Shown here in pieces: positions 1 through 44,400 of a stretch of DNA of 44,400 bases. The notes under the pieces are model-generated. The model searched no databases. It was not told the DNA's origin and worked only from the letters and a program-made list of their open reading frames with translations. The position numbers and the translations under genes are program-made. Each line of letters begins with the position of its first letter. Positions within the stretch are counted from its first letter, which is position 1. Source of the DNA: Spirochaetota bacterium. GTDB taxonomy: Bacteria > Spirochaetota > Spirochaetia > CADAEX01. Where the stretch lies: the NCBI GenBank assembly GCA_009786125.1, contig WQTU01000131.1, positions 1-44,400 on the forward strand, written 5' to 3'.

Positions 1-448
1 TTTCGGCCCAAGCCGCAACGAAGTTTCCAGCGAATCGCGATGGGTTGGCGGCTGCGCTGTCTCGCCTAAAGGACGGCTCGCATCTCAGCCGCCAACCCTC
101 ATTAGCAACATTCGCGCGCACGTCTTGAGCCTACGGGCAGCCCCGCAACTAAGCCGCAATTCATATCGATACCATGGGCAGAAAGGAAAAACTGCAACGG
201 CTACCCGCAGGCGAAAAACGCATGAGCGATTTCGAGTAAAACGAGCATAAGGGGCACAGCCCCTTTGTCCACCTCATCGTTCTGTCATGTGCAAGCAAAG
301 CTTGCCCGCGACCCTCACTTCTTCGGCGGATGAGCGAATGCGGGATTCGCCGAGAGGCCTACGTGGTATTGGTTTGAATTGCGGATTTGAGCCGTAGGGC
401 AACTTAGTATACTTGCATATTTTTGAAATCTAAATTAAATTTTCAGCT
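1..448. other. GC-rich gene-free region with inverted repeats
   Basis: No convincing gene is seen. The stretch is clearly more GC-rich than the rest of the window and carries several inverted repeats: a perfect 13-bp pair at 42-54 and 86-98 (31-nt loop), a 12/14 pair at 129-142 and 199-212, a 10-bp pair at 154-163 and 375-384, and a short GGGGC/GCCCC hairpin near 249-265. The last belongs to a repeat copy at 249-329. A structured RNA, a cluster of palindromic repeats or the edge of a mobile element are all possible; no known RNA family is recognised. Confidence 0.5.
249..329 (+). repeat. Family B palindromic repeat copy
   Basis: It starts with a hairpin (AAGGGGC, ACA, GCCCCTT). Next comes the block ACCTCATCGTTCTGTCATG, then an internal palindrome GCAAGCAAAGCTTGC, then CGCGACCCTCACTTCTTCGG. 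The same order of blocks is found, reversed, at 21041-21156 and, degenerate, at 31922-32008. This is the cleanest single copy in the window. Confidence 0.6.
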
Positions 449-4752: not shown

Positions 4753-4915
4753 TTAAGGAACCGCTGATTTATTCAATCGAGAATAAATTGCGCAGCACCC
4801 CGAACTTGTTCGGGGCTACAATACCTTATTATCCTTTTTTCGCAGTTTTCTGCAAGGAAACGAGAAAAAATATGGACGCACTGATTAGAGTCAAATTTAA
4901 TCAGTGCTTCCTTAA
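4753..4915. mobile_element. MITE-like element, family A, full-length copy
   Basis: A 163-bp non-coding element. The left end TTAAGGAACCGCTGATTTA (4753-4771) and the reverse complement of the right end (4897-4915) match at 16 of 19 positions. Each end also has its own hairpin: GCTGATTTATTC pairing inward on the left, and GCACTGATTA (878-887) with TAATCAGTGC (898-907) on the right. The middle holds a perfect CCCCGAAC-TT-GTTCGGGG hairpin (4798-4815) and a longer one near 4840-4870. Related copies lie at 8602-8674 and 44291-44400. No transposase is present, so it would be non-autonomous. No certain target duplication is seen. Confidence 0.6.
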
Positions 4916-8601: not shown

Positions 8602-8674
8602 CTAAGGAATTGCAGCCCCGTTCGGGATGCTTCGCGAATTTATTCTTGATTGAATAAATCAGCGGTTTCCTAAA
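8602..8674 (-). mobile_element. MITE-like element, family A, short copy
   Basis: Read on the minus strand it starts TTTAGGAAACCGCTGATT and continues with the same TTCAAT and GAATAAATT hairpin as the copy at 4753. A GCATCCCGAACGGGGCTGC hairpin follows, and it ends in a CCTTAG tip. It lacks the right half of the full element. The ecfT stop codon (TAG) lies in its first bases and the AGGAG of the downstream S-component gene at its other end, so it sits in the ECF operon as a 73-bp spacer. Confidence 0.55.
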
Positions 8675-10989: not shown

Positions 10990-13041
10990 TTAAGGTTTTT
11001 CAGACAGCTTTTCCAGAGGCTCTTCTGTATCTTCAAGAGCTTCCAGTTCATTTTCCGGAGCGTCTGCTTCATCAAGAGACCATGCCGAATCTTCCGAAGG
11101 TTCTATTGCATCATCAAGAGCTTCCGTTTCTTCCAAAGCTTCTGCATCTTCAAGAACTTCCGTTTCTTCCAGAGCTTCTGCTTCATCAAGAACTTCTGCT
11201 TCATCAAGAGCTTCCGCTTCTTCAAGAGCTTCTGCATCTTCAAGAGCTTCTGCATCTTCAAGAACTTCTGCATCTTCAAGAACTTCCGCTTCTTCAAGAA
11301 CTTCCGCTTCTTCAAGAACTTCCGCTTCTTCAAGAGCTTCCGCTTCTTCGGTCTCAATATCAACAGTCTCAGCCCTACTCTCATTAATAGATGCTATATA
11401 TTCAGTAAGCGCTGCCCTAATAGTAATAAAAACAGATGGGTAAATCATGTCATAAAAATAGGTTCTATAATAAATTGCAAGTTTTTTTTGCTTAAAATAA
11501 GAAACAATTGATTCACTGATACCAGTATGACTATGTTCTTTGATGTGAGTCGAAATATCCAGTTTTCCGTATCCGGGCAGAGAATTAACCCTATCCTGAT
11601 ATGCTCCAAGCTTGTCGAACAAATCATAAAGCGAATAAGTAAGGTTAATAAATTTTTTGACAATATCATCATTGTTTTCAAGTTTATCCAGAAAAAGCTT
11701 ATATTTTGCAGGATACATTATTCTTAAAATATCATCTTTTCGCAAGTTAATGCCTTTTTGAATAAATACAGATTCTATTGCATTTATTACAAATTTGTTT
11801 CCCCGGTAATATTCAAGAAGTTCCAGAATTTTATCGATTCCTTCATCGCCTTTATACAGCAAAAGTTTTACCTGCTCAGATAGCATTTCCGGCAAAGAAG
11901 GGCTCACCTGAACACTATAGCTTTCAAAAATAGCGCTTTTTTTATCTTTAAGCAGAACTTTTTTGTATTGAAAAAGCTCGTCAACTGTAATGTCTTTAAA
12001 ATACCCCATTGTCAGTTGGGCTTCCTTTTTAAATTGGTTAAAATAATTTTCAACCACGCCTATTTCCATTAATATATCATAAAAACTTTTGGAAATTCTT
12101 AAACCGCCAATCGGCGCTGTGGACTCCATTCTTTTGGCTTCAATTACAGGAAGCCCTACAACGTCCCACTGCTTTGCGCCCGGAGGACCAAAATTACCTA
12201 TCGTAACTTCTCCTATATTTGCACCAATTCTTATTCTCAGCTGAAAAAGAGCGTTTATTGCATTAAAAAAATCACTATTCGCCCTTAAATTTCCAATAAT
12301 ATTATATGCTACTTGAATCGCTGATTTTGTTTCTTCGTCCATATCGCTATCATTTTCAAAGAAACTGCTGTCTGCCTGATTAAACAAAAAACAGACTTTT
12401 TGAAGCTCAACGCAAGTATAAAAAAGCTCTCGCGCAATATGCCTTATGGCATTCTCTTCTTTCATATTTTTGGTTACAGGGTATGTAAGACCGCCAAACT
12501 GAAACATAATGCCATCGCCGTCGATTTTATTAAGATATCCTGATCTCTTTTTCAAAACCCAGTTAAAACAGGAATAAATGCCGTTTAAAACATCCTGATT
12601 CTCCATAGGGCTAAGAAATTTTGAAACATAACTGTAGTCTGCAAGGTCAAGAAAAGCTACCCCAATTTTGGCTTCTATCGATTTTTCGGGTATTGCCCCT
12701 CTTTCCACTATTGCTTCTACAAGTTGTTTTGGTAAGTAATAATCTTCTATAGCTTTTCTGAATTTTAACTCTTTTATTGTCTTTTCAAGAGCTTGTTTAA
12801 GATCTTTATTTTCCGAAGGCATTGTTTTTGAAGCATTATCCGCCCCCTTTGTTTCGCTTTTTTTCTGCAGGGCATCATCAATAATTTCCTGAATTTTGGA
12901 TATATGAATATCTTTTTCATTATCAGAGACGTTATTTTTTAAAAGCTCTCCAAGATATTCGGCAATGTAATTCGGCTCATTTTCATATTTCTCGGTTATA
13001 TAAAGAGCATGAATATACATGGATTTGGAATCAAAAACCAT
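10990..13041 (-). CDS. Class III adenylate/guanylate cyclase with repetitive acidic tail
   Basis: A 683-aa protein. An N-terminal helical region (1-120) leads into the linker DYYLPKQLVEAIVERG, then a class III cyclase domain (about 125-330). FLDLADYS and KIDGDGIMF hold the two metal-binding Asp. The Lys of NKIDGD and the Asp of QWDVVG favour ATP over GTP. In VIEAKRME the usual Asn of the VNxAxR motif is not conserved while the Arg is, so activity needs proof. An uncharacterised helical region (330-560) follows, then an acidic tail made of about 14 copies of a six-residue (E/D)-A/V-L-(E/D)-E/D-A unit. No membrane helix. It seems to head the ECF operon, 4 nt before the ATPase gene. Confidence 0.82.
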   Translation of the reverse strand: MVFDSKSMYIHALYITEKYENEPNYIAEYLGELLKNNVSDNEKDIHISKIQEIIDDALQKKSETKGADNASKTMPSENKDLKQALEKTIKELKFRKAIEDYYLPKQLVEAIVERGAIPEKSIEAKIGVAFLDLADYSYVSKFLSPMENQDVLNGIYSCFNWVLKKRSGYLNKIDGDGIMFQFGGLTYPVTKNMKEENAIRHIARELFYTCVELQKVCFLFNQADSSFFENDSDMDEETKSAIQVAYNIIGNLRANSDFFNAINALFQLRIRIGANIGEVTIGNFGPPGAKQWDVVGLPVIEAKRMESTAPIGGLRISKSFYDILMEIGVVENYFNQFKKEAQLTMGYFKDITVDELFQYKKVLLKDKKSAIFESYSVQVSPSLPEMLSEQVKLLLYKGDEGIDKILELLEYYRGNKFVINAIESVFIQKGINLRKDDILRIMYPAKYKLFLDKLENNDDIVKKFINLTYSLYDLFDKLGAYQDRVNSLPGYGKLDISTHIKEHSHTGISESIVSYFKQKKLAIYYRTYFYDMIYPSVFITIRAALTEYIASINESRAETVDIETEEAEALEEAEVLEEAEVLEEAEVLEDAEVLEDAEALEDAEALEEAEALDEAEVLDEAEALEETEVLEDAEALEETEALDDAIEPSEDSAWSLDEADAPENELEALEDTEEPLEKLSEKP
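11108..11352 (-). repeat. 18-nt tandem repeat in the cyclase gene
   Basis: About 13 to 14 copies of an 18-nt unit, on the plus strand close to TTCAAGAACTTCCGCTTC, with variants at a few positions (AGAGC or AGAAC, CGCT or TGCA). The unit is a multiple of three, so copy-number change alters tail length without shifting frame. Because it contains no stop codon in other frames, it also leaves long open frames on the opposite strand that are not genes. Confidence 0.9.
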
Positions 13042-21028: not shown

Positions 21029-21040
21029 ATTTATTCTCCG

Positions 21041-21206
21041 ACGAAGCGAGAGTTGCGAGCAAGCCTCGCTTGCACATCTACCAAATAAGTAAGAGTCGCG
21101 GGCAAGCATAGCTTGCACATGACCGAACGATGAGGTGGACAAAGAGGCTTACCCCTTGTATACCGAGCGAGGAAGAGAACAAAAGGTTAGCGAAGCTATA
21201 CCTTTT
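21041..21206 (-). repeat. Family B palindromic repeat, double copy
   Basis: On the minus strand the blocks run AAGGGGTAAGCCTCTTTGTC, then ACCTCATCGTTCGGTCATG, GCAAGCTATGCTTGC and CGCGACTCTTACTT, in the same order as the copy at 249-329. A second shortened unit follows (ATGTGCAAGCGAGGCTTGC, then TCGCAACTCTCGCTTCG). The 5' border GAATAAAAGGTATAGC overlaps the batD stop codon and recurs almost exactly at 26301-26315. Confidence 0.6.
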
Positions 21207-22824
21207 ATTCTGGTTCCGTTAAAATGTTTTCTTTTCTTATCCAGCCCCTATTGGCTTTGTCTGTGGTTTCTATAAGGAAAAACTCTCCTTTTTCCCCTAT
21301 TATTCTAACCAGACCGCCGCTTTCCATAGTAAATCTTACATTAACAAATTCTTCGGGAAGAACATAAACATTAACAGAGACAGAGTCTTCTATAACAATT
21401 CCATAAACAGGTTCTTTAATCAATATTTTTGTTATTATAAAAAATCCAATAATAACGCTTAATAAAACTATTACCAAAAGAGCTATTATTGATTTTTTGT
21501 TTTTTTTCTTTAATACAAAAACAAGCGAAGGAATTATGGATATTATTAAAATTATTCTGAATATTTCAAACAGAATTTTTTTTATTTTTTCTTCGCGGTC
21601 TGCTTGAATTATATCGGGCGCAGGTTGCGTAAATAATTCTTTTTCTATATTTAAAACAAAAACAGCTCCTTGCCGCCTTTCTTGTCTTGAGTGCAGTAAC
21701 GATTCAGGAGAATCTTTTGGATACCATAAAAAATCGGGAATTATAACTGAAATTGTTTCTTGCCACTCTGCTCCGGGTTTTTTTCTGATTAAATAAGTAA
21801 GTTCTCTTGTACCTCTAAAAAATCTGTAATCCGGGGTAACATCATATCTGTCTCTTATAAGAGAAATGAATGCTATTTCCGGGCTGCAAATGTATGGAAC
21901 AGGCATTGTGATTCCGTAAAAATTGCCTGTTCCTGTAATTTTCTGCCTTAAGATAACAGCTTGCACTGCTGATATTTCATTGCCTGATATTTCGTACTCA
22001 TAGGAAAAATTCCCAATTGCGCTTATATTTTGTTCTGTTGCAGGCAGCGAAGAAATTGCAATTGGTACGCCTTTTAATATTGTGCTATACTCGAAATCTT
22101 CTTCGGAAATAAAAATTTCTACGTTAGGCAGAGTTAAACTGCCTGCCCTGAATGGAACAAATATGTGATCGTGGAAAAGCACATCGTAGACTCTCCCTGT
22201 CATTGTTTCTTTTGCAATAACTGTTCTCTCGTTTTTTTCTGCGTTTCTGCTGATTCTTTTTACAATTCCGCCAGATGTTTGCGATACTTCGGATTCTATT
22301 GTAATATTAGGGTTTTCTATATTTTCTATTATAAAACGTAAAGGAATTATTTCCCCGGGATAATAGTTTCTCCGTGGGATATCCCATCTTGCAGAGAGGG
22401 GAATTCTATCAATGCTGCCATGTCTCTGAGAAGTTGGGACTGCGGTAATAAAAACAGGGGGAGTATATACCGGCGCTCTGCCGCTGCTTCTTATTCTAAA
22501 ACTTTCTATTATGTAGCGTCCGGGATTATTTAATCTAAAAGTATAATCAACAACCGAACCATTTATTCTTGGTCTTATGGATGGACCTGCTACAACTTCA
22601 AGCCCGCTCGGGAATGCCGGAGCTTCAATAATTAATCTTGCCGGAGGTATATCCGGAATAAGAATAGTGAATCTAAATTCTTCGTTTACATGAAAAGAAG
22701 TTTTTTCTATAATTACTTGTCCTGTAAACTCTTCGGCCCAAAGCAGGAAAGAGAATAACAGAAAAAAAGCTACCAATCCCTTGTGCGGTCTGATGATGTT
22801 GTAACTGTTGTATCTTGTATCCAA
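21205..22824 (-). CDS. batD: BatD-like protein with SH3 tail
   Basis: A 539-aa membrane-anchored protein of the BatD (oxygen tolerance) type. A signal-type hydrophobic segment (about 17-30) is followed by a long periplasmic region of repeated beta domains (about 35-395), typical of BatD, and one or two membrane helices (about 418-470). The extra C-terminal 70 residues look like a bacterial SH3 domain (VYGIVIEDSVSVNVYVLPEE, GGLVRIIGEKGEFFLIE, RGWIRKENIL). The start overlaps the end of batC by 55 nt in another frame. The TAA stop lies on the border of the repeat at 21041-21206. Confidence 0.8.
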   Translation of the reverse strand: MDTRYNSYNIIRPHKGLVAFFLLFSFLLWAEEFTGQVIIEKTSFHVNEEFRFTILIPDIPPARLIIEAPAFPSGLEVVAGPSIRPRINGSVVDYTFRLNNPGRYIIESFRIRSSGRAPVYTPPVFITAVPTSQRHGSIDRIPLSARWDIPRRNYYPGEIIPLRFIIENIENPNITIESEVSQTSGGIVKRISRNAEKNERTVIAKETMTGRVYDVLFHDHIFVPFRAGSLTLPNVEIFISEEDFEYSTILKGVPIAISSLPATEQNISAIGNFSYEYEISGNEISAVQAVILRQKITGTGNFYGITMPVPYICSPEIAFISLIRDRYDVTPDYRFFRGTRELTYLIRKKPGAEWQETISVIIPDFLWYPKDSPESLLHSRQERRQGAVFVLNIEKELFTQPAPDIIQADREEKIKKILFEIFRIILIISIIPSLVFVLKKKNKKSIIALLVIVLLSVIIGFFIITKILIKEPVYGIVIEDSVSVNVYVLPEEFVNVRFTMESGGLVRIIGEKGEFFLIETTDKANRGWIRKENILTEPE

Positions 22825-25293: not shown

Positions 25294-26150
25294 ATTTTTC
25301 TCGCCCCCGCAGCTTCTTCGAGTTGTAACGCAAAACTGTAAACAGCTTCGGATGTTTCTGTAATTACTTGGGAATCTGCGGCGGCATTTCCAAAACGCAC
25401 AGAATCCAAAAAAACAAGCTCTTTAGAGGGAGCTTCGGGAAATGCTGTAACTATTTCTTTGGTTGTAAAACATGTGGTTTTTTTACTTGTAGCAATTTCA
25501 AGATATTCTTTTAATAATTGTATAAATCTTTTTGTGTAATCAGCTTTTTCATATTGGCTTAAGCGAGAAGCCAGTCTTGACATCTTTCTTAGCAAATATT
25601 TTCTTTTAAAAGCATTGGTTTTTAGGACAACTGTTTTTCTTATTTTTTTAGGAGCTACTTTAATTGCATAATAGCATAAAAACAAAAATATAACCAATAA
25701 TGTAAAACCTGCTGCAAACAAAAGCTTTGTCCAGGGCAATAAAAGTTTTCCGCCAAGAGGATTTAATGTGCTCACATTCCCCAGCCTGGATTCTATAACA
25801 AGAGGAATCCCTGAATAAATTCTCTCTTCTATTATAAAATCAGGAAAAAAAGAAACTGACGGATCAAGTGGTATAAACCAGATAAAAATTTCATTTCGAT
25901 TATGGTTTATTTTTATATCTTCGATAAAAAACCACTGATTATTTTTAACTGTTATTGCTCCTCTGTCTGAGGATGTTATATTGTCTGCAAGTCTGATTCT
26001 GATAAATCCTTTTTCTCCTGTTCTTAAAGTTGTTGGATTTAATGTATAATTTAGAATAGTGCCGTATCGTATCGGATACACTTTGCTATCTTGAGAATAA
26101 GATAAGGCAATGAAAATAAAAACAAACAGGAATAAAAATATTCTTCTCAT
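25290..26150 (-). CDS. Bat-cluster membrane protein
   Basis: A 286-aa protein with a signal peptide (MRRIFLFLFVFIFIALSYSQ), a periplasmic beta-type domain (about 22-140), one membrane helix (about 146-168) and a basic cytoplasmic helical tail (170-286). Proteins of this layout sit between the DUF58 and batA genes in many bat clusters and may link periplasm and cytoplasm; no enzymatic motif is seen. It overlaps both neighbours by 4 nt. Confidence 0.7.
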   Translation of the reverse strand: MRRIFLFLFVFIFIALSYSQDSKVYPIRYGTILNYTLNPTTLRTGEKGFIRIRLADNITSSDRGAITVKNNQWFFIEDIKINHNRNEIFIWFIPLDPSVSFFPDFIIEERIYSGIPLVIESRLGNVSTLNPLGGKLLLPWTKLLFAAGFTLLVIFLFLCYYAIKVAPKKIRKTVVLKTNAFKRKYLLRKMSRLASRLSQYEKADYTKRFIQLLKEYLEIATSKKTTCFTTKEIVTAFPEAPSKELVFLDSVRFGNAAADSQVITETSEAVYSFALQLEEAAGARKI

Positions 26151-27193
26151 CTTTTCCTTGAATTAAAAAAGGTATTTATTTTCTCGACAATATTATCACT
26201 TGTAGATATATCAACAAGAGGAATTTCAAACTTTGCTGCTTCTGAAAAATCTTTATCTGTGTTTTTTATGGGACAGGGTATGCTGCGCAAACCTGCCGGC
26301 GAATAAAAGGTATGCTGCCGCAACTTTTTGCTTGCCTCCTTGCTCGGCCATGTGTCTTCGCTTGCCCGCGGTTTTCGCTTCGCCGGCGAGTAAAAATATC
26401 CGTAAGGGTCATTTCCCCGGGATTCGTATGAAAATGAATTAGGACTTTTGGTGCTGGTATCGGCATTGTCTCGTATGCGGAAAATCGCAGTTTCAACTCC
26501 GGAAGAAATTTTCAAAAGAGTTTGCCAGGGAATATCGTATTCCATATCAGAAATTATTATACATATTCCTTTTTTTCGAAAACTTCTGGGGAGAGCCCTG
26601 CAAGCAACTTCAAGGTTAGAACCTTCGTGCGTGGGATGGGAATCCAATATTTTTTCTGCTATAGAAAAAATATGGCTTCTGCCGGCAGCAGGGAGAACTG
26701 TCTCTTCAACCTCGCCGGAAAAAAGAATAGCTGCTGTTTTATCCCGGCTCGAAGCAGCAGAAAGCCCAAGCACTGCGGCTGCGATTGCTGCTGTTTCCAG
26801 CTTTGTTTTTCGCACAGCGCTTTTCGCTGCTTCGGCTCCATCCCCGGCACCCGCAGCAGGCGCCATGCCGATACGTTGCTCGCTCTGTCCGCTCTGCAAT
26901 TCAGGATAAAGAGACCCGCCGGCAGCCATAGATGCAGAAACATCTACCAAAAGATACAACTCCAGCTCTCTTTCTTCCTGCATTACAAGCGTAAACGGCC
27001 TGCCTGTTCTTGCAAAAGCATTCCAGTCAATAAACCTAAAGTCATCTTCATACGAATATTCCTTGACTCCTTCCAGCTCCATGCCAATACCTTTGTATGC
27101 AGAGAGATAAAAACCGGCAGAGTTTCCGCTCAGACGTTTTCTGATTACTATTTCAATTTTTTTTATTTCAGAAAGAATTTCTTTCTTGTTCAT
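26147..27193 (-). CDS. DUF58 protein with two inserted segments
   Basis: A 348-aa cytoplasmic DUF58 protein, the usual MoxR partner, with the DUF58 signature (GIGMELEGVKEYSYEDD, FRFIDWNAFARTGRP) and a VWA-like DVSASM at 84-89. Two stretches do not fit the family. Residues 94-128 (Gly/Ala-rich, very GC-rich DNA at 26809-26914) split the DVSASM strand from the KLETAAIAAA helix. Residues about 262-312 are encoded by the palindromic repeat at 26295-26395, and the peptide FYSP-A occurs at both of its ends. Both insertions keep the frame. It starts 1 nt after the moxR stop and ends overlapping the next gene by 4 nt. Confidence 0.85.
   Translation of the reverse strand: MNKKEILSEIKKIEIVIRKRLSGNSAGFYLSAYKGIGMELEGVKEYSYEDDFRFIDWNAFARTGRPFTLVMQEERELELYLLVDVSASMAAGGSLYPELQSGQSEQRIGMAPAAGAGDGAEAAKSAVRKTKLETAAIAAAVLGLSAASSRDKTAAILFSGEVEETVLPAAGRSHIFSIAEKILDSHPTHEGSNLEVACRALPRSFRKKGICIIISDMEYDIPWQTLLKISSGVETAIFRIRDNADTSTKSPNSFSYESRGNDPYGYFYSPAKRKPRASEDTWPSKEASKKLRQHTFYSPAGLRSIPCPIKNTDKDFSEAAKFEIPLVDISTSDNIVEKINTFFNSRKR
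26295..26395 (+). repeat. Family B palindromic repeat inside the DUF58 gene
   Basis: The plus strand reads GCCGGCGAATAAAAGGTATG, then CCTCCTTGCTCGGCCATGTG, then GCTTGCCCGCGGTTTTCGCT, ending TCGCCGGCGAGTAAAA. The blocks match the order of the copies at 249-329 and 21041-21206, and GAATAAAAGGTAT is identical to the batD-end border. The flanking CGCCGGC/TAAA motifs form an inverted pair. Confidence 0.55.
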
Positions 27194-27194
27194 T

Positions 27195-28142
27195 TTACGG
27201 AGTTTTTACACTACCAAGTATGGTAGAAATTATAATATTGGAATCTGCGCCTTCGGCCTCAGCTTCGAAACTTCTTATTATTCTGTGCCTTAGAATATCG
27301 GGAGCAATTTCTTTTACATCGTCCGGAATAACAAATTTACGTTTTTCCAAAAGCGCTTTTATGCGGGCACTTCTCATTATTCCTATAGAAGCTCTCGGGG
27401 ATGCGCCAAACTCAACATATTTGTTTTTTTTTCTCGTCTCTCTTACAATATCTACAATATATTTTTTTATGTCGCCGCTTAACATTACATTTTCTGCAGC
27501 ATCTGAAAGCCTTGTAACATCTTCCTGCGTAATTTTGTCTTTAAACACGGGAAATGTTTTTTCTTCTTTATCATGTATTGCAAGAATTTTAAGCTCAGAA
27601 TCGTGCGATGGGTAGCTAATATCCAGCTTCATCAAAAACCTGTCGAGCTGAGCTTCGGGCAGCCTGTATGTTCCTTCTTGTTCAATGGGGTTTTGGGTAG
27701 CAATTACAAAAAAATTATCATGAAGCTTGTGGGTTGATTCTCCTATTGTAACCTGCCTTTCTTCCATTGCTTCGAGCAACGCAGACTGAACCCTTGCAGG
27801 AGAGCGGTTTATCTCGTCTGCAAGAACAATGCCGGAAAACACAGGGCCTTTTCTTAGAGCAAACTCTCCTGTTGCCGGAATAAAAATAAGGTTTCCCGTA
27901 ATATCCGACGGAAGAAGATCAGGAGTAAACTGAATTCTTGAAAAATCAGCTCCCATAATTTCCGAAAGAGCTTTTGCTGCTCTGGTTTTTGCAAGCCCGG
28001 GAACTCCCTCTATTAAAACATGCCCGCCTGCCAGGTAAGCTATTAAAAGCCGGTCATAAATAAGCTGTCCGTCAATAATAGTTTCAAGAAAATATTTTTT
28101 TGCATTATCAAGTTTTTCGAAAATCGCGGCAATATTATCCAC
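27195..28142 (-). CDS. moxR: MoxR-family AAA+ ATPase
   Basis: A 315-aa AAA+ ATPase. Walker A is [12 protein letters not shown] (about 41-52), Walker [24 protein letters not shown] (sequence around 107-115), with the sensor [22 protein letters not shown]. It would act as a chaperone on the VWA/DUF58 partners encoded next to it. It begins 15 nt after the argJ stop, so it is probably transcribed with argJ, and DUF58 follows after 1 nt. Confidence 0.93.
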
Positions 28143-29620: not shown

Positions 29621-32038
29621 TTACTGCCTCGTAAACGCAGCAGGATTTATAATAACATATTGCCCGTTCCTGGTTGCGCCATGAATTCTTCCATCGCGGA
29701 AAACTATGCTTTTAAGAACCATGCCTGTATCTGCATGTTTTACAGCTACACCATTCACCGGATTATATGCCGTAATTCTTCCGGCAGGAGATTCCGAAAC
29801 CACATAAACAAGAGTCCCTTCAAGAGTACAAAAACTTTTTACTCTTTCTATTTCTCTTACTTCTTCTCCCCTTGGATTAAAAAATTTCAAAGTATTATTG
29901 GAATAAATTATAACTCCGCGCTCAGATGCACTAATTTGCGGCAGCCTGCCCAAAGCCAAAGCATCCGCTGCTGCCGGACGAAATCTCCCTTCCCAAAGAA
30001 AACTGCCTGTCTGAAGATCAATAGCATTAACAGAACCATTTACATTTGCAAAGTAGCCAATATTGCTGCTAACAGCGATACCCATTCCCTGCGGGCTCCC
30101 CAGCGTTACAGGAATTGAAGAAATAGGAGTTTCCGCCTGGCTGCCATAATCTGCGTGCCCAAAAATTTGCAGAACCCCCCTGTTGGTTACAGTCAAAACC
30201 CTGTTATTATAGAAAAAAGGATATGAAACAACCGTGTCCGGCACCCTTATCCTTCTGCTAACTTCAAAATTATTGCCATTAATAACAAGAATAGAATCGC
30301 CGCTGTTTATAAGAACCAAATTTCCGTGTACAACAGGCTCTCTGAAAGGAGCCGCGGTCGCGTCCAGCTCAATAACACCAGCTTCTCTCCAGGTTACTGT
30401 GTTTATTGCCCTAAAAGCATCTCCGGATACAAACAAAAGATTCCCGCCGGCAAACACCGGAGCTGCGGCGGCGGCATCGTTATTTCTAAACAGAACTCTG
30501 CCCTCAGTATCTACGACAGAAAAACCATTCCCGCTTGAAACAAATACAAAATGATTCCTGCCCGCAGGAGTAATTCTATCCAAACTACTAAATCCTGTAT
30601 CAAAAGTATATGGAATAAGCAAAGCTTCCAAAGCAATATTTCTTCTTAAAGTCTCGCCTTCTCTAATTTCTACAGATAAATTTTCTGTCCTGAATTCTCT
30701 TCTTTGCAAAGATACATTTAACATTGTTCCGGGCGAATAGCTTGCAATATGCCTTCCCCGGCCTACAGACCTGCCGCCTATGAAAATTTCAGCATCTGAC
30801 GGAGAAACAGATATTTCAAAATAACCCCTTGCAGGCTCTTTAGGTCTTAGCGTAATTATATACGGCTTCTCCGCAATTTCAGAAACAATAAATTCTTTTT
30901 CATAAACCTCATAACCTTCGTGCTCCGCAGAAACTCTTATTGTTCGCCTTTCTGCCAAAAGAGCGTTAACCGAACCCAAGCCTATAAAAACGCCGTCAAA
31001 ATAAATCCTTGCCCTTGCCGGCTCTGTGCGAAAAATAACTTCTTTAAGTGTTTCATCTTGATCATGTATCTGCATAAAATCCGTTATTCTAAGTTTTTCA
31101 AGGTTAGCTTCACTAATATCCTGCACTAGCGCCAAAGCTTTTTCTGCATCAGATATAATAGCTGCAGAAGAATTTAAAATAATTTCATGAAAATCTCTTA
31201 TTACTATATTTCCGCGAATAAGATTATCAACAGCATTTTCAACCGCCAAAAGCGTTGTTAAAATTTCCGCAGATAAATCAGGTGTTATAACTATCTCGCT
31301 TCCGCCTGCTACAAGAGGAAACCTTTCTTCTACCAACTGTATAAAAGCCTCGATATTTTCATCCCCTTCCGGCGCCTTTTCCATTATTCTTTCAACAACA
31401 TCCAGGTGGGGAATCATCTGCACACTTCCCGACCTTACAGCAAGAACAATATCGTCCGAATCTGCACCCGAAGCAGAGACCAGAAATTCCGTGCCTCTTA
31501 CGCCAAAAACAGCGCTATTTGTTCTTATAGAATGGTCAGAGCCTACCATTCTCTCAACTTTGTTTATGATGGTTCCGCTTACAAGGGACATGACAACATC
31601 TGAATCTGCTCCAACAATTGCAAGCCGATCTATTGAAAGTTCTGTATTTCCGTCCATTCGTATAACTGAATTTCCGGTTATAAGTATTTCGAGAAATGAA
31701 TCAGTTGCTGTTCTTACAGTATCTCCGGGGCTAAGAATGTCGCCGATTGCAGCCGGCAAAATCGTATTTTCCGAGAAAATATATGCATCGCCTGAGATAA
31801 AAGTAATAACAGCATTAAGGTTTCTTTCTGCAACCTGCACCGGCACCGGCTCCCTTCTGCATGACGAAAAATGAAAAATGATAAAAATTATAAGAAAAAA
31901 ATATAATAAAAGATATTGTACCGCAGGGCTCTGCCCTGCGCGACCTTTTATTTCCTCATTCGCTCGGTCATGAGCGTGCAAGCACGTCGCGACTCTCGCT
32001 TTATTCGGAAAGAACCTGTAAAGACTATTTCGTTTCAC
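29621..32038 (-). CDS. FecR/PEGA/beta-propeller lipoprotein
   Basis: An 805-aa predicted lipoprotein. The GTG start has AAGAGG seven bases upstream. Residues 10-42 are encoded by the repeat at 31922-32008; only then comes the signal (YLLLYFFLIIFIIFHFSSC, Cys about 60), so the signal sits unusually far from the start. Mature part: FecR-like domain (about 75-215, SGDTV-type GDILSPGDTV, and NSAVFGVRGTEF), a helical region, two PEGA repeats (about 335-470: ARIYFDGVFIGLG and AEIFIGGRSVGRG), then a PQQ-like beta-propeller (about 490-800). Probably an envelope protein sensing or binding surface ligands; function inferred only from domains. Confidence 0.82.
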   Translation of the reverse strand: MKRNSLYRFFPNKARVATCLHAHDRANEEIKGRAGQSPAVQYLLLYFFLIIFIIFHFSSCRREPVPVQVAERNLNAVITFISGDAYIFSENTILPAAIGDILSPGDTVRTATDSFLEILITGNSVIRMDGNTELSIDRLAIVGADSDVVMSLVSGTIINKVERMVGSDHSIRTNSAVFGVRGTEFLVSASGADSDDIVLAVRSGSVQMIPHLDVVERIMEKAPEGDENIEAFIQLVEERFPLVAGGSEIVITPDLSAEILTTLLAVENAVDNLIRGNIVIRDFHEIILNSSAAIISDAEKALALVQDISEANLEKLRITDFMQIHDQDETLKEVIFRTEPARARIYFDGVFIGLGSVNALLAERRTIRVSAEHEGYEVYEKEFIVSEIAEKPYIITLRPKEPARGYFEISVSPSDAEIFIGGRSVGRGRHIASYSPGTMLNVSLQRREFRTENLSVEIREGETLRRNIALEALLIPYTFDTGFSSLDRITPAGRNHFVFVSSGNGFSVVDTEGRVLFRNNDAAAAAPVFAGGNLLFVSGDAFRAINTVTWREAGVIELDATAAPFREPVVHGNLVLINSGDSILVINGNNFEVSRRIRVPDTVVSYPFFYNNRVLTVTNRGVLQIFGHADYGSQAETPISSIPVTLGSPQGMGIAVSSNIGYFANVNGSVNAIDLQTGSFLWEGRFRPAAADALALGRLPQISASERGVIIYSNNTLKFFNPRGEEVREIERVKSFCTLEGTLVYVVSESPAGRITAYNPVNGVAVKHADTGMVLKSIVFRDGRIHGATRNGQYVIINPAAFTRQ
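31922..32008 (+). repeat. Family B palindromic repeat in the lipoprotein leader
   Basis: A GCAGGGC-TCT-GCCCTGC hairpin is followed by CCTCATTCGCTCGGTCATG, GTGCAAGCACGTCGCGACT and CTCGCTTTATTCGG. This is the block order of the copy at 249-329. On the minus strand it is translated in frame between the start codon and the signal peptide of the lipoprotein. Confidence 0.55.
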
Positions 32039-34045: not shown

Positions 34046-34058
34046 GATGTTTAACCCT

Positions 34059-34919
34059 TTACTCCCCTCCTTGTTCAGTTATGCTGCCTGGTACCTCTTC
34101 GGGCTTGGTATTGATATGACTCTCGCTATGCCGGCGAATAAAATTAATTTTTATTATACCACAAACATTTTCATAACCACAGATAATGGTATCCTTTATT
34201 ATCGACCGATCATATAATTTACTGTAATCTACATTAGAGCCATTAAAATATAAAAAATTAAGTTTTGCTTTTTTTACAATAGCATGAGGGGCTGCTATAT
34301 CCCATATTTTAGCTTTTGGAATAACAGCTCCGCCTATACCGCCATGAATTATTGGAGCAATAATATTAATTATTGCAGAGCCTGTTACTCTTGCTTTACC
34401 TTTAAAAGCTGAAAAGTCAAAAAAATGATGCGTTTTTGATGCAATAGCAAGCTGAACATCTTTATCTGCTAAGGGTGCATAAACTATTTTATCCGGAGAT
34501 AATTTCTTTCCATTTACAAAAACAGGTCCATCAATATCAGAATATATAAATGTCCCTTTTTTTCCTCCCCACAAAGGAGCATATATAATGCCTGCTACTG
34601 GCTCCCCTTTTTTCAGCAGCCCTATTGCAACACACCAGCCAGGCATACCCTGGCTAAAAGAATCTGTGCCGTCTATTGGATCAACAACAAAACAAAACTC
34701 TTTGGAGCCATCGCAACTTGCCGGAGATTCTTCTGTAATCAAGCCTGCTTTGGGGTAAAGAGAAGCAATGGCTTTTGAAAGATATTCATTTAATTTCTTA
34801 TCGATATACGTAATAACAGAGCCATCGGTTTTAAATTTTCTTTTTACCTTGTGCTGCTCTTTTACAGCTTTTTTTCCAGCTTTTTTTACATATTTTACAA
34901 GCGGTTTAATGGTTGTCAT
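34059..34919 (-). CDS. Inositol-monophosphatase-family phosphatase
   Basis: A 286-aa magnesium-dependent, lithium-sensitive-type phosphatase (SuhB/CysQ superfamily). Motifs: TEES (Glu ligands), VVDPIDGTDSFSQG (about 80-93) and WDIAAPHAIVKKAK. Substrates in the family are inositol phosphates, sugar phosphates or 3'-phosphoadenosine phosphates, and cannot be told apart here. The last 25 residues (RRHSESHINTKPEEVPGSIT and on) are encoded by the repeat at 34066-34143 and look added. It precedes the HD-GYP gene by 13 nt. Confidence 0.88.
   Translation of the reverse strand: MTTIKPLVKYVKKAGKKAVKEQHKVKRKFKTDGSVITYIDKKLNEYLSKAIASLYPKAGLITEESPASCDGSKEFCFVVDPIDGTDSFSQGMPGWCVAIGLLKKGEPVAGIIYAPLWGGKKGTFIYSDIDGPVFVNGKKLSPDKIVYAPLADKDVQLAIASKTHHFFDFSAFKGKARVTGSAIINIIAPIIHGGIGGAVIPKAKIWDIAAPHAIVKKAKLNFLYFNGSNVDYSKLYDRSIIKDTIICGYENVCGIIKINFIRRHSESHINTKPEEVPGSITEQGGE
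34066..34143 (+). repeat. Family B palindromic repeat at the phosphatase 3' end
   Basis: CCTCCTTGTTCAGTTATGCT at the left and TGACTCTCGCTATGCCGGCG then AATAAAA at the right match the outer blocks of the copies at 31922-32008 and 26295-26395; the centre is different. It encodes the last 25 codons and the stop of the phosphatase gene on the minus strand. Confidence 0.45.
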
Positions 34920-36904: not shown

Positions 36905-37690
36905 CTATACTTCAACACCGCAATCCCCATTTAGGATTTGCTTGAGCTTTTCCATATTTTGTTTGGCAACAACATTATTCGGATCAAGTTGGATTGCCTT
37001 GTCATAGTCTGCAATAGCGCGGTCATAGTCGCCTTTATGCGAATACACAGTACCGCGATCGTAATACATTTGTGCATTATTCGGATCAAGGCGAATTGCC
37101 TGATCAAAGTCCGCAATAGCGCTATCATAGTTGCTCTTGCCAAAGTACAGAGTACCACGACCGTAATACGCTAGTGCATCATTCGGATCAAGTCGGATTG
37201 TATGATCAAAGTCCGCAATGCCGCGGTCACAGTCGCATTTGTGTAAATACACAAAGCCGCGATGGAAATACGCTTGTGCATTATTCGGATCAAGCTGGAT
37301 TGCCTGATCAAAGTCCACAATGGCCCGCTCATAGTCTTCTTTGTGTAAATACACAAAGCCACGATGGTAATACGCTAGTGCATTATTCGGATCAAGTCGA
37401 ATTGCCTGATCAAAGTCCGCAATAGCGCTATCATAGTTGCTCTTGCCAAAGTACAGAATACCACGATGGTAATACGCTTGTGCATCATTCGGATCAAGTT
37501 GAATTGCCTGGTCAAATTCCGCAATAGCGCGGTCATAGTCGTCTTTTTGTAAATACATAAAACCTCTGATTGATAACACTTTTTGCTTTTTTCTTAATCT
37601 CCAAATCAGCAAAAGCAAAAAATTATAGTGGGGGACTCCAAAAATTATCCTCCCACCCCATTCATCCCAGAAGGGAAATTCTATTTGCAC
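36905..37690 (-). CDS. TPR-repeat protein, start uncertain
   Basis: Open from a GTG at 37690 (261 aa), but the better ribosome-binding site (AGAGG) stands before the ATG at 37558, which gives 217 aa consisting almost only of six TPR units with a near-invariant core (DYDRAIADFDQAIRLDPNNA). TPRs bind partner proteins. The upstream 44 codons encode a hydrophobic segment (NFLLLLIWRLRKKQK) that could be a membrane anchor. A lipoprotein-like leader lies upstream in another frame (37662-37742), so the true N-terminus may be frameshifted. The partner is unknown. Confidence 0.75.
   Translation of the reverse strand: MQIEFPFWDEWGGRIIFGVPHYNFLLLLIWRLRKKQKVLSIRGFMYLQKDDYDRAIAEFDQAIQLDPNDAQAYYHRGILYFGKSNYDSAIADFDQAIRLDPNNALAYYHRGFVYLHKEDYERAIVDFDQAIQLDPNNAQAYFHRGFVYLHKCDCDRGIADFDHTIRLDPNDALAYYGRGTLYFGKSNYDSAIADFDQAIRLDPNNAQMYYDRGTVYSHKGDYDRAIADYDKAIQLDPNNVVAKQNMEKLKQILNGDCGVEV
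36960..37560 (-). repeat. 102-nt tandem repeat array (TPR units)
   Basis: Six 102-nt units. The blocks near 37078-37160 and 37384-37466, 306 nt apart (three units), differ at only a few positions over about 80 bases, so a three-unit block appears to have been duplicated recently. Confidence 0.85.
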
Positions 37691-42808: not shown

Positions 42809-44293
42809 ATGACAATTAATATAGATGTGCCTAAAATTCAAAAAATAGCACGAAATTCTTTACCTCTTATAATTAAAACCCATAAAATTAATCATGAAAT
42901 AGAAGAGCAAATGGAACAGATTCTTTTAATTTTTTTGGAAGAATTTGGACAAAAAGAAATCTTGGCTCAAATATCCTATTGTTTACGTGAGCTGCTTGTA
43001 AATGCCAATAAAGCAAATACAAAAAGAGTTTACTTTATAGAAAAAAATCTTGATATTGAAGATGATGATGACTATCAGACAGGAATGGAATCTTTTAAAT
43101 CAGATACCCTGAGTAATATTGAACATTACTTTAAAAAACAGCAAGAAGCAGGTTTATATATAAAAATAGGTTTTCATGCAGTAAGCGATAAACTAACAAT
43201 AACTGTAAGAAATAATTCAAAAATTTCAACAAAAGAGCATATGCGGGCTTATGACAGAATTGCAAGATCAAGGGCGCTTAACACTCTTGAAGAAGCAATG
43301 ACATCTGTGTTGGACAGCTCGGAAGGAGCAGGGCTTGGGCTTGTTATTCTTGTTTTAATGCTTAAAAAAATAGGTCTGAACGAAGATGCTTTTGATCTTG
43401 ATGTTGACGGTGACGAAACCGTAGCAAAACTGGTTATTCCTTTTTCAGAAATACATAAAGAAAACCTCACTGCATTATCCAAAGAAATTGTTAAAGAGAT
43501 TAATGAACTTCCGCAATTTCCGGAAAACATTGTTCAACTCCAGAAAATGATAGACGATCCTGAATCCGAAATAACAGATATAGCAAGAAATATCGCAATG
43601 GATATGAGCCTTACAGCAGATCTTCTAAAAATAGTAAACTCTGCCCAATATATGTTATCCAAGAAAGTTGACAGCATAACAGAAGCTGTAAAACTTGTAG
43701 GGCTAAGAGGTCTTAAAAACCTTCTATATTCTTATGGAACACAAAAAGTATTAAATTCCGGATTAAAAGAGTTGTGGACTCATTCAAACAAAACAGCATT
43801 TTATGCTTATGCGCTTGCAAAAAACTATATAAGAAAAAAAGAATTGCTTGATGATGTTTATATTGGCGCTATTTTGCACGATATAGGAAAAGTTGTCTTT
43901 TTTAATGCACACCCGGCGCTTGTTGGAAAAATATCCGCGCTTGCCAAAGACAGAGAAATGGGCAAAGATATATTTGAAGCTCTATCCGCTGGTTTAAACC
44001 ATGCAGAAATCGGCGCTCTTATTGCTGAAAAATGGAATTTCCCCGACGACCTTGTAACATCAATAAGATATCATCACGACCCGATGACAGCTCCTCATGA
44101 AAAATGGGAAACTGTTGCAACAATTTATTTTGCCAACTGTATCGCAAACTATGAAGAAAAAGAAATCTCATTTGAGCAAATATCAAAAACCGTCCTTAAG
44201 TTTTTTAAAATATCAGCAGAAAAACAGTTTAACACTCTTTTAAATAAACTTATGGAAATTTATAGCAAAGAAAGCAATGTTGAAAAAAGCTAA
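42809..44293 (+). CDS. HATPase-HDOD signalling protein
   Basis: A 494-aa soluble protein. Residues about 10-215 resemble a histidine-kinase-type ATPase fold: CLRELLVNANKANTKRVYF (N box), LTITVRNNSK (G1 region, weak) and SEGAGLGLVILVLMLKKIGL (G2). Residues about 230-480 are an HDOD domain (ELPQFPENIVQLQKMIDDPE, DMSLTADLLKIVNSA, AVKLVGLRGLKNLLYS) which retains an HD pair (LHDIGKVVFF) and a HH later. HDOD proteins act in signalling, often with cyclic di-GMP or chemotaxis, mostly as binders. The stop codon is the tip of the repeat at 44291. Confidence 0.85.
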   Translation: MTINIDVPKIQKIARNSLPLIIKTHKINHEIEEQMEQILLIFLEEFGQKEILAQISYCLRELLVNANKANTKRVYFIEKNLDIEDDDDYQTGMESFKSDTLSNIEHYFKKQQEAGLYIKIGFHAVSDKLTITVRNNSKISTKEHMRAYDRIARSRALNTLEEAMTSVLDSSEGAGLGLVILVLMLKKIGLNEDAFDLDVDGDETVAKLVIPFSEIHKENLTALSKEIVKEINELPQFPENIVQLQKMIDDPESEITDIARNIAMDMSLTADLLKIVNSAQYMLSKKVDSITEAVKLVGLRGLKNLLYSYGTQKVLNSGLKELWTHSNKTAFYAYALAKNYIRKKELLDDVYIGAILHDIGKVVFFNAHPALVGKISALAKDREMGKDIFEALSAGLNHAEIGALIAEKWNFPDDLVTSIRYHHDPMTAPHEKWETVATIYFANCIANYEEKEISFEQISKTVLKFFKISAEKQFNTLLNKLMEIYSKESNVEKS

Positions 44294-44400
44294 GAACCCG
44301 CTGATTTATTCAATCGAGAATAAATCAGCTTTACCTTATTATCCTTTTTTCGTAGTTTTCTGCAAGAAAACTACGAAAAAATGTGGAAGCACTGATTAGA
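44291..44400. mobile_element. MITE-like element, family A, cut by the window end
   Basis: It starts TAAGAACCCGCTGATTTATTC, matching the copy at 4753-4915. A perfect hairpin (GCTGATTTATTC with GAATAAATCAGC) and a long perfect stem around GTAGTTTTCTGCAAGAAAAC follow. The right end, GGAAGCACTGATTAGA, continues past the window. Confidence 0.6.

Follow-up and report, generated by a model that had tools for sequence, protein, structure and literature searches.

A dispersed palindromic element family is found in frame in a DUF58 gene and seven other genes of a spirochaete genome

A short segment of a DUF58 protein encoded in a spirochaete genome is very probably a decayed copy of a small, genus-restricted and non-autonomous palindromic element, which has preserved the reading frame of its host gene and would be translated as a passenger. 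The segment was analyzed within a stretch of 44,400 nucleotides (hereafter, the window). It belongs to a dispersed family that has a covarying hairpin, is missing from homologues of the genes that carry it and occurs in frame in eight genes, where it is read in several frames and on both strands. We judge this new family to be a protein-coding palindromic element with no earlier report found in the phylum; among the open-licence papers listed by text searches, no report of such palindromic inserts was found for spirochaetes or termite-gut Treponema.

The DUF58 gene, which follows a MoxR-type ATPase gene in an operon (Table 1), contains the repeat wholly within its frame, and that frame is kept on both sides, as had been read from the sequence in the original prediction. 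The two FYSP-A copies then described as flanking the repeat are also confirmed, since two 15-base direct copies, TTTTTACTCGCCGGC and CTTTTATTCGCCGGC, with a spacing of exactly 87 bp, encode two FYSPA peptides. However, the segment is smaller than the approximately 45 residues (262-312) first proposed: it covers approximately residues 267-300 (i.e., 34 aa). When searched with the covariance model of the family (R1), the copy scores 67.8 bits with E=5.8e-15 in the genome and E=1e-16 in the window, although the model was trained on 24 rows that include this copy. It also has 29 BLAST-level matches in the host genome, far more than chance would give. The copy is degenerate, part of an inner arm being missing, and its single-strand fold is no better than that of shuffled sequences (z=+0.32). 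The description of the repeat as palindromic thus holds for the family, with its covarying hairpin, but not for the DUF58 copy taken singly. The only match of the window in Rfam is a tRNA, the repeat matching no Rfam family. At the protein level, a profile search of the PDB with the DUF58 protein found no relative, and an AlphaFold2 model computed from four sequences has a mean pLDDT of 34.

Table 1. Positions of the DUF58 host gene, its inserts and the other element copies in the window
Feature	Position	Strand	Details
Intergenic element copy	260..334	-	86 bits
Long composite form of the element	21035..21210	+	Core 21075-21147; 72.6 bits; 44 related places in the genome
DUF58 gene, host of the repeat	26147..27193	-	348 aa; PF01882 E=1.4e-34; orthologues in three congeners
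Palindromic-element copy in the DUF58 gene	26295..26396	-	~101 bp, residues 267-300; direct repeats; family member; absent from congener orthologues
Second direct copy in the DUF58 gene	26295..26309	-	CTTTTATTCGCCGGC
Element core in the DUF58 gene	26323..26394	-	Residues 267-291; match to covariance model R1
First direct copy in the DUF58 gene	26382..26396	-	TTTTTACTCGCCGGC
Second in-frame insert in the DUF58 gene	26816..26902		87 bp, residues 98-126; missing in each of the three congeners
MoxR-type ATPase gene	27195..28142	-	Directly upstream of the DUF58 gene in the operon; PF07726 E=1.6e-62
Element copy overlapping the N-terminal end of an 805-aa reading frame (29621-32038)	31943..32015	-	68.9 bits; frame open throughout
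Weak, degenerate element copy forming the C-terminal end of a 286-aa frame (34059-34919)	34054..34142	-	33 bits, E=1e-6

Since the single-strand fold of the DUF58 copy gives no signal, we turned to an alignment of the family instead. Copies were searched for with nhmmer, and an alignment of 24 copies and 77 columns is the basis of the covariance model. The element has a core of ~75 nt within a unit of ~85-110 bp, and its consensus folds into a single long hairpin whose internal loops are rich in purines. Compensatory (double) changes are seen in 14 of the 19 pairs of the alignment. Cells of the alignment that are meant to pair do so in 95.5% of cases vs. 85.0% in shuffles, a control that leaves relatedness in, and pairing drops to 27-41% when partners are slid by 1-3 columns, a control that keeps relatedness and agrees with the first; in both comparisons, the structure is one derived from the same sequences. 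In the outer stem, TTTACC/GGTAAA and variants thereof, double changes affect all five pairs, and terminal inverted repeats of the MITE type are present. Many copies carry a terminator-like hairpin (AAAAGGT...ACCTTTT) after the core. As for coding potential, a mean of 2.8 of the six frames are open per core; the corresponding means are 2.2 for base shuffles and 2.4 for 75-mers drawn at random from the genome. By this count of open frames, the element is modestly easy to translate.

The double changes may reflect selection on the hairpin, copying of one arm from the other during replication, or both. If template switching at replication corrected arm from arm, the palindrome would be maintained by mutation, and the observed double changes would arise without any selection for a hairpin. 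The literature discusses arm-copying of this kind as one way in which inverted repeats come to be maintained (PMC6649704), and we treat it as a serious possibility while leaning against it as the full account. Arm-copying would tend to perfect the internal loops as well, yet these are imperfect and have a conserved sequence, whereas the outer stem is free to vary with its pairing kept. This pattern speaks against arm-copying, without being decisive.

The covariance model detects at least 118 copies in the host genome, a minimum since 150 candidates were scored, and 5, 11 and 14 copies in three congeners (G001-G003). All host copies come from a draft genome in 139 contigs, with some of them at contig ends. 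The same model finds zero copies in seven sister-genus genomes, and three distant ones give one or two weak matches. In a sample of 247 genomes of the phylum, no other genome has the element at E<=1e-6 under stricter filters. Most copies in the host are intergenic, with about 10 of 118 inside called genes. Because coding calls cover 82% of the sampled sequence, copies are strongly under-represented in genes, both figures being approximate since genes were called with a simple codon-usage script.

This intergenic bias, together with the terminator-like hairpin after the core of many copies, is what would be expected if the family were primarily an RNA-level element (a terminator or a stabilizer of transcript ends) with only accidental copies in genes. 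We find this unlikely, although a role of intergenic copies at RNA ends would be compatible with a mobile element. The copies do not cluster in convergent gaps, as there are 17 in convergent, 20 in divergent and 59 in tandem gaps vs. a background of 40, 39 and 185, respectively. Moreover, a terminator within eight genes is expected to be harmful.

Comparison with orthologues bears on whether the DUF58 segment is native to the protein. The DUF58 orthologues in the three congeners are 78% identical and have no repeat sequence, while more distant DUF58 frames are mostly 283-323 aa vs. 348 aa here. At the site of the repeat, the congeners do not present a clean empty site but a variable linker of 17-27 residues, which is why the net gain in the DUF58 protein is only 13-23 residues. 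The alternative that residues 267-300 are an ordinary part of the DUF58 protein, resembling the repeat by chance, has this lysine-rich linker at the same point in its favor. It is very improbable, since the family to which the DNA of the segment belongs has at least 118 copies, and neither a similar peptide nor the repeat DNA is found in the three orthologues. The orthologue alignment called for by the original prediction thus found the segment missing in three of three congeners; orthologues with the same segment encoded by unrelated DNA, which would have marked it as native, were looked for, and the outcome goes against native protein.

The same alignment reveals a second in-frame insert in the DUF58 gene (Table 1), cleaner than the repeat copy and overlooked in the original prediction. 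It is GC-rich, rich in Ala and Gly, and located just past the vWA DxSxS motif. We considered whether it was also a repeat and rejected this, as it has a single copy in the genome and no special fold.

The frames across each copy were scored by codon usage, a scan that detects in-frame insertions only. Apart from the DUF58 gene, in-frame cases were found in genes encoding MutS2, RecF, HemW, an ATP-grasp ligase, a MetH-activation-like protein (an assignment with a score below Pfam's own cut-off), an outer membrane β-barrel protein and an Sfp-type transferase. The element adds 29 aa to MutS2, 35 aa to RecF, 52 aa to HemW, 34 aa to the ATP-grasp ligase and ~39 aa to the MetH-activation-like protein, and in each case the segment is missing from the congener orthologues. 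A further copy splits a signal peptide that is uninterrupted in the congeners, and the copy in the β-barrel protein is absent from the paralogue and the homologue used for comparison. No relative of the Sfp-type transferase was found in the genus, and it was therefore left out of the eight genes counted, namely those encoding the DUF58 protein, MutS2, RecF, HemW, the ATP-grasp ligase, the MetH-activation-like protein, the β-barrel protein and the protein with the split signal peptide. Two additional in-frame copies occur in the congeners, at protein N termini (L096 and L109). In the MetH-activation-like protein, the position of the insert is a site open to independent insertions; the protein of congener G003 (L196, G003:C34:8813-9598) has an in-frame GNQDDVV tandem repeat of its own there. 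Misjoining of copies into genes during assembly, for which 139 contigs and copies at contig ends give some occasion, is scarcely credible, since at least eight inserts preserve the frame in conserved genes, unlike misjoins, and the N-terminal cases in two congener genomes are independent.

How the element is read differs from gene to gene, as FYSPAKRK, ISRRSESRGQ, PLIPHSLGHERAST or PLSTSSLGHVQ, on both strands. There is therefore no conserved peptide, and the use of several frames and both strands shows that it is the nucleic-acid structure that is kept. A structural subfamily whose core contains GCGNCGTGCTTGC has seven copies. Three of these lie within the genes for MutS2, RecF and the MetH-activation-like protein and share one antisense frame. 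A fourth is probably inside an Sfp-type gene.

Nested copies, along with homologues that lack the element, are evidence of past mobility. At two loci (C42 and C45), one unit lies within the ACAT/CCGA joint of another, and such nesting and empty sites suggest that the element has moved. AT-rich, TTTTATT-like words occur at both ends of the element, but as a target-site duplication they are inseparable from the element itself. A search for RAYT-type Y1 transposases (PF01797) found none in the genus (four genomes), while control genomes matched, and the family is thus not a REP/RAYT system.

The window contains four other copies of the element (Table 1). The long composite form seems, by eye, to be one unit nested in another, as at C42 and C45. 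The 805-aa frame overlapped by one copy is lipoprotein-like, and its true start codon may fall within or past the repeat. The 286-aa frame ends in ...INFIRRHSESHINTKPEEVPGSITEQGGE, its weak copy being in the same frame as the signal-peptide inserts elsewhere. A different palindrome (CGCTGATTTATTCAATCGAGAATAAATCAGC) is found with companions at 4753-4889, 8637-8673 and 44291-44400. Elsewhere in the genome, it flanks element copies in composites that start with AGGGAACCGCTGATT and end with AATCAGTGCTTCCCT, ends that resemble the terminal inverted repeats of a MITE. The window also has a tandem array at 11011-11403, with at least 13 units and a period of 18 bases (six codons), and direct repeats at 36973-37564, with a period of 102 bases, a multiple of three.

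Taking the DUF58 segment as a decayed copy of a mobile palindromic element, we propose the following scenario. Copies of the element, one long hairpin with internal loops and, in many cases, a terminator-like hairpin behind it, would have spread over the genome, presumably with the help of an enzyme acting in trans. Most insertions in genes, in particular those out of frame, would have been purged by selection. The survivors would be those that are open and in frame at tolerant places, such as linkers, loops and the N-terminal parts of signal peptides, and in the DUF58 protein the element would have entered a length-tolerant linker without breaking the frame. Surviving copies would be translated, as their open frames suggest, into a passenger peptide that is probably near-neutral. 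What is kept would be the nucleotide hairpin, given that different genes read different frames of either strand. A bolder reading, which we offer tentatively and think rather doubtful, is that the genus has a palindromic element system independent of that of the Rickettsiales that repeatedly rewrites proteins, with the GCGNCGTGCTTGC subfamily especially suited to coding insertion and the hairpin serving as the substrate of the mover. In any case, the filled and empty sites of the four genomes form a comparative set with which to ask where in a protein insertions of 30-50 residues are tolerated and how new segments are gained.

Several known systems resemble this family in part. As in REP/RAYT systems, there are many palindromic copies, mosaic clusters and a mostly intergenic distribution, but the hairpin here is longer and no RAYT-type Y1 transposase was found in the genus. 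MITEs such as ERIC, Correia/NEMIS and YPAL are hairpin repeats that are sometimes fused in frame to proteins, including signal peptides (PMC2229807). Like them, our element is short, non-autonomous, hairpin-forming and mostly intergenic, with some in-frame fusions; unlike them, it has no established parent insertion sequence or target duplication, the transposase search having covered the RAYT family. The elements of Rickettsia (RPE), ~105-150 bp in size, form hairpins and code for a conserved peptide, and nearly half of them are in-frame parts of genes (PMC2229807, PMC10969869). The original prediction of RPE-like behavior is upheld by seven further genes with in-frame copies absent from homologues: as with RPE, dispersed palindromic units of similar size are found between genes as well as in frame in unrelated conserved genes (PMC2229807, PMC10969869), whose orthologues do not have them. 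However, the element here is read in several frames and from either strand instead of encoding a conserved peptide in one frame, about a tenth of the copies are in genes rather than nearly half, and the host phylum differs. Since there is no conserved peptide and the likeness is drawn from descriptions, we do not file the family as RPE. In Wolbachia, palindromic inserts (WPE) occur in frame and with no premature stops in the repair genes addA, addB and priA (PMC4224334), a likeness to MutS2 and RecF here that is again drawn from descriptions and spans different phyla. The protein-coding palindromes described in the open-licence literature are mainly those of Rickettsia and Wolbachia, along with isolated in-frame MITE fusions in other organisms. 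That a covarying spirochaete family interrupts core genes, MutS2, RecF and HemW among them, suggests an independent origin of this behavior outside the Rickettsiales.
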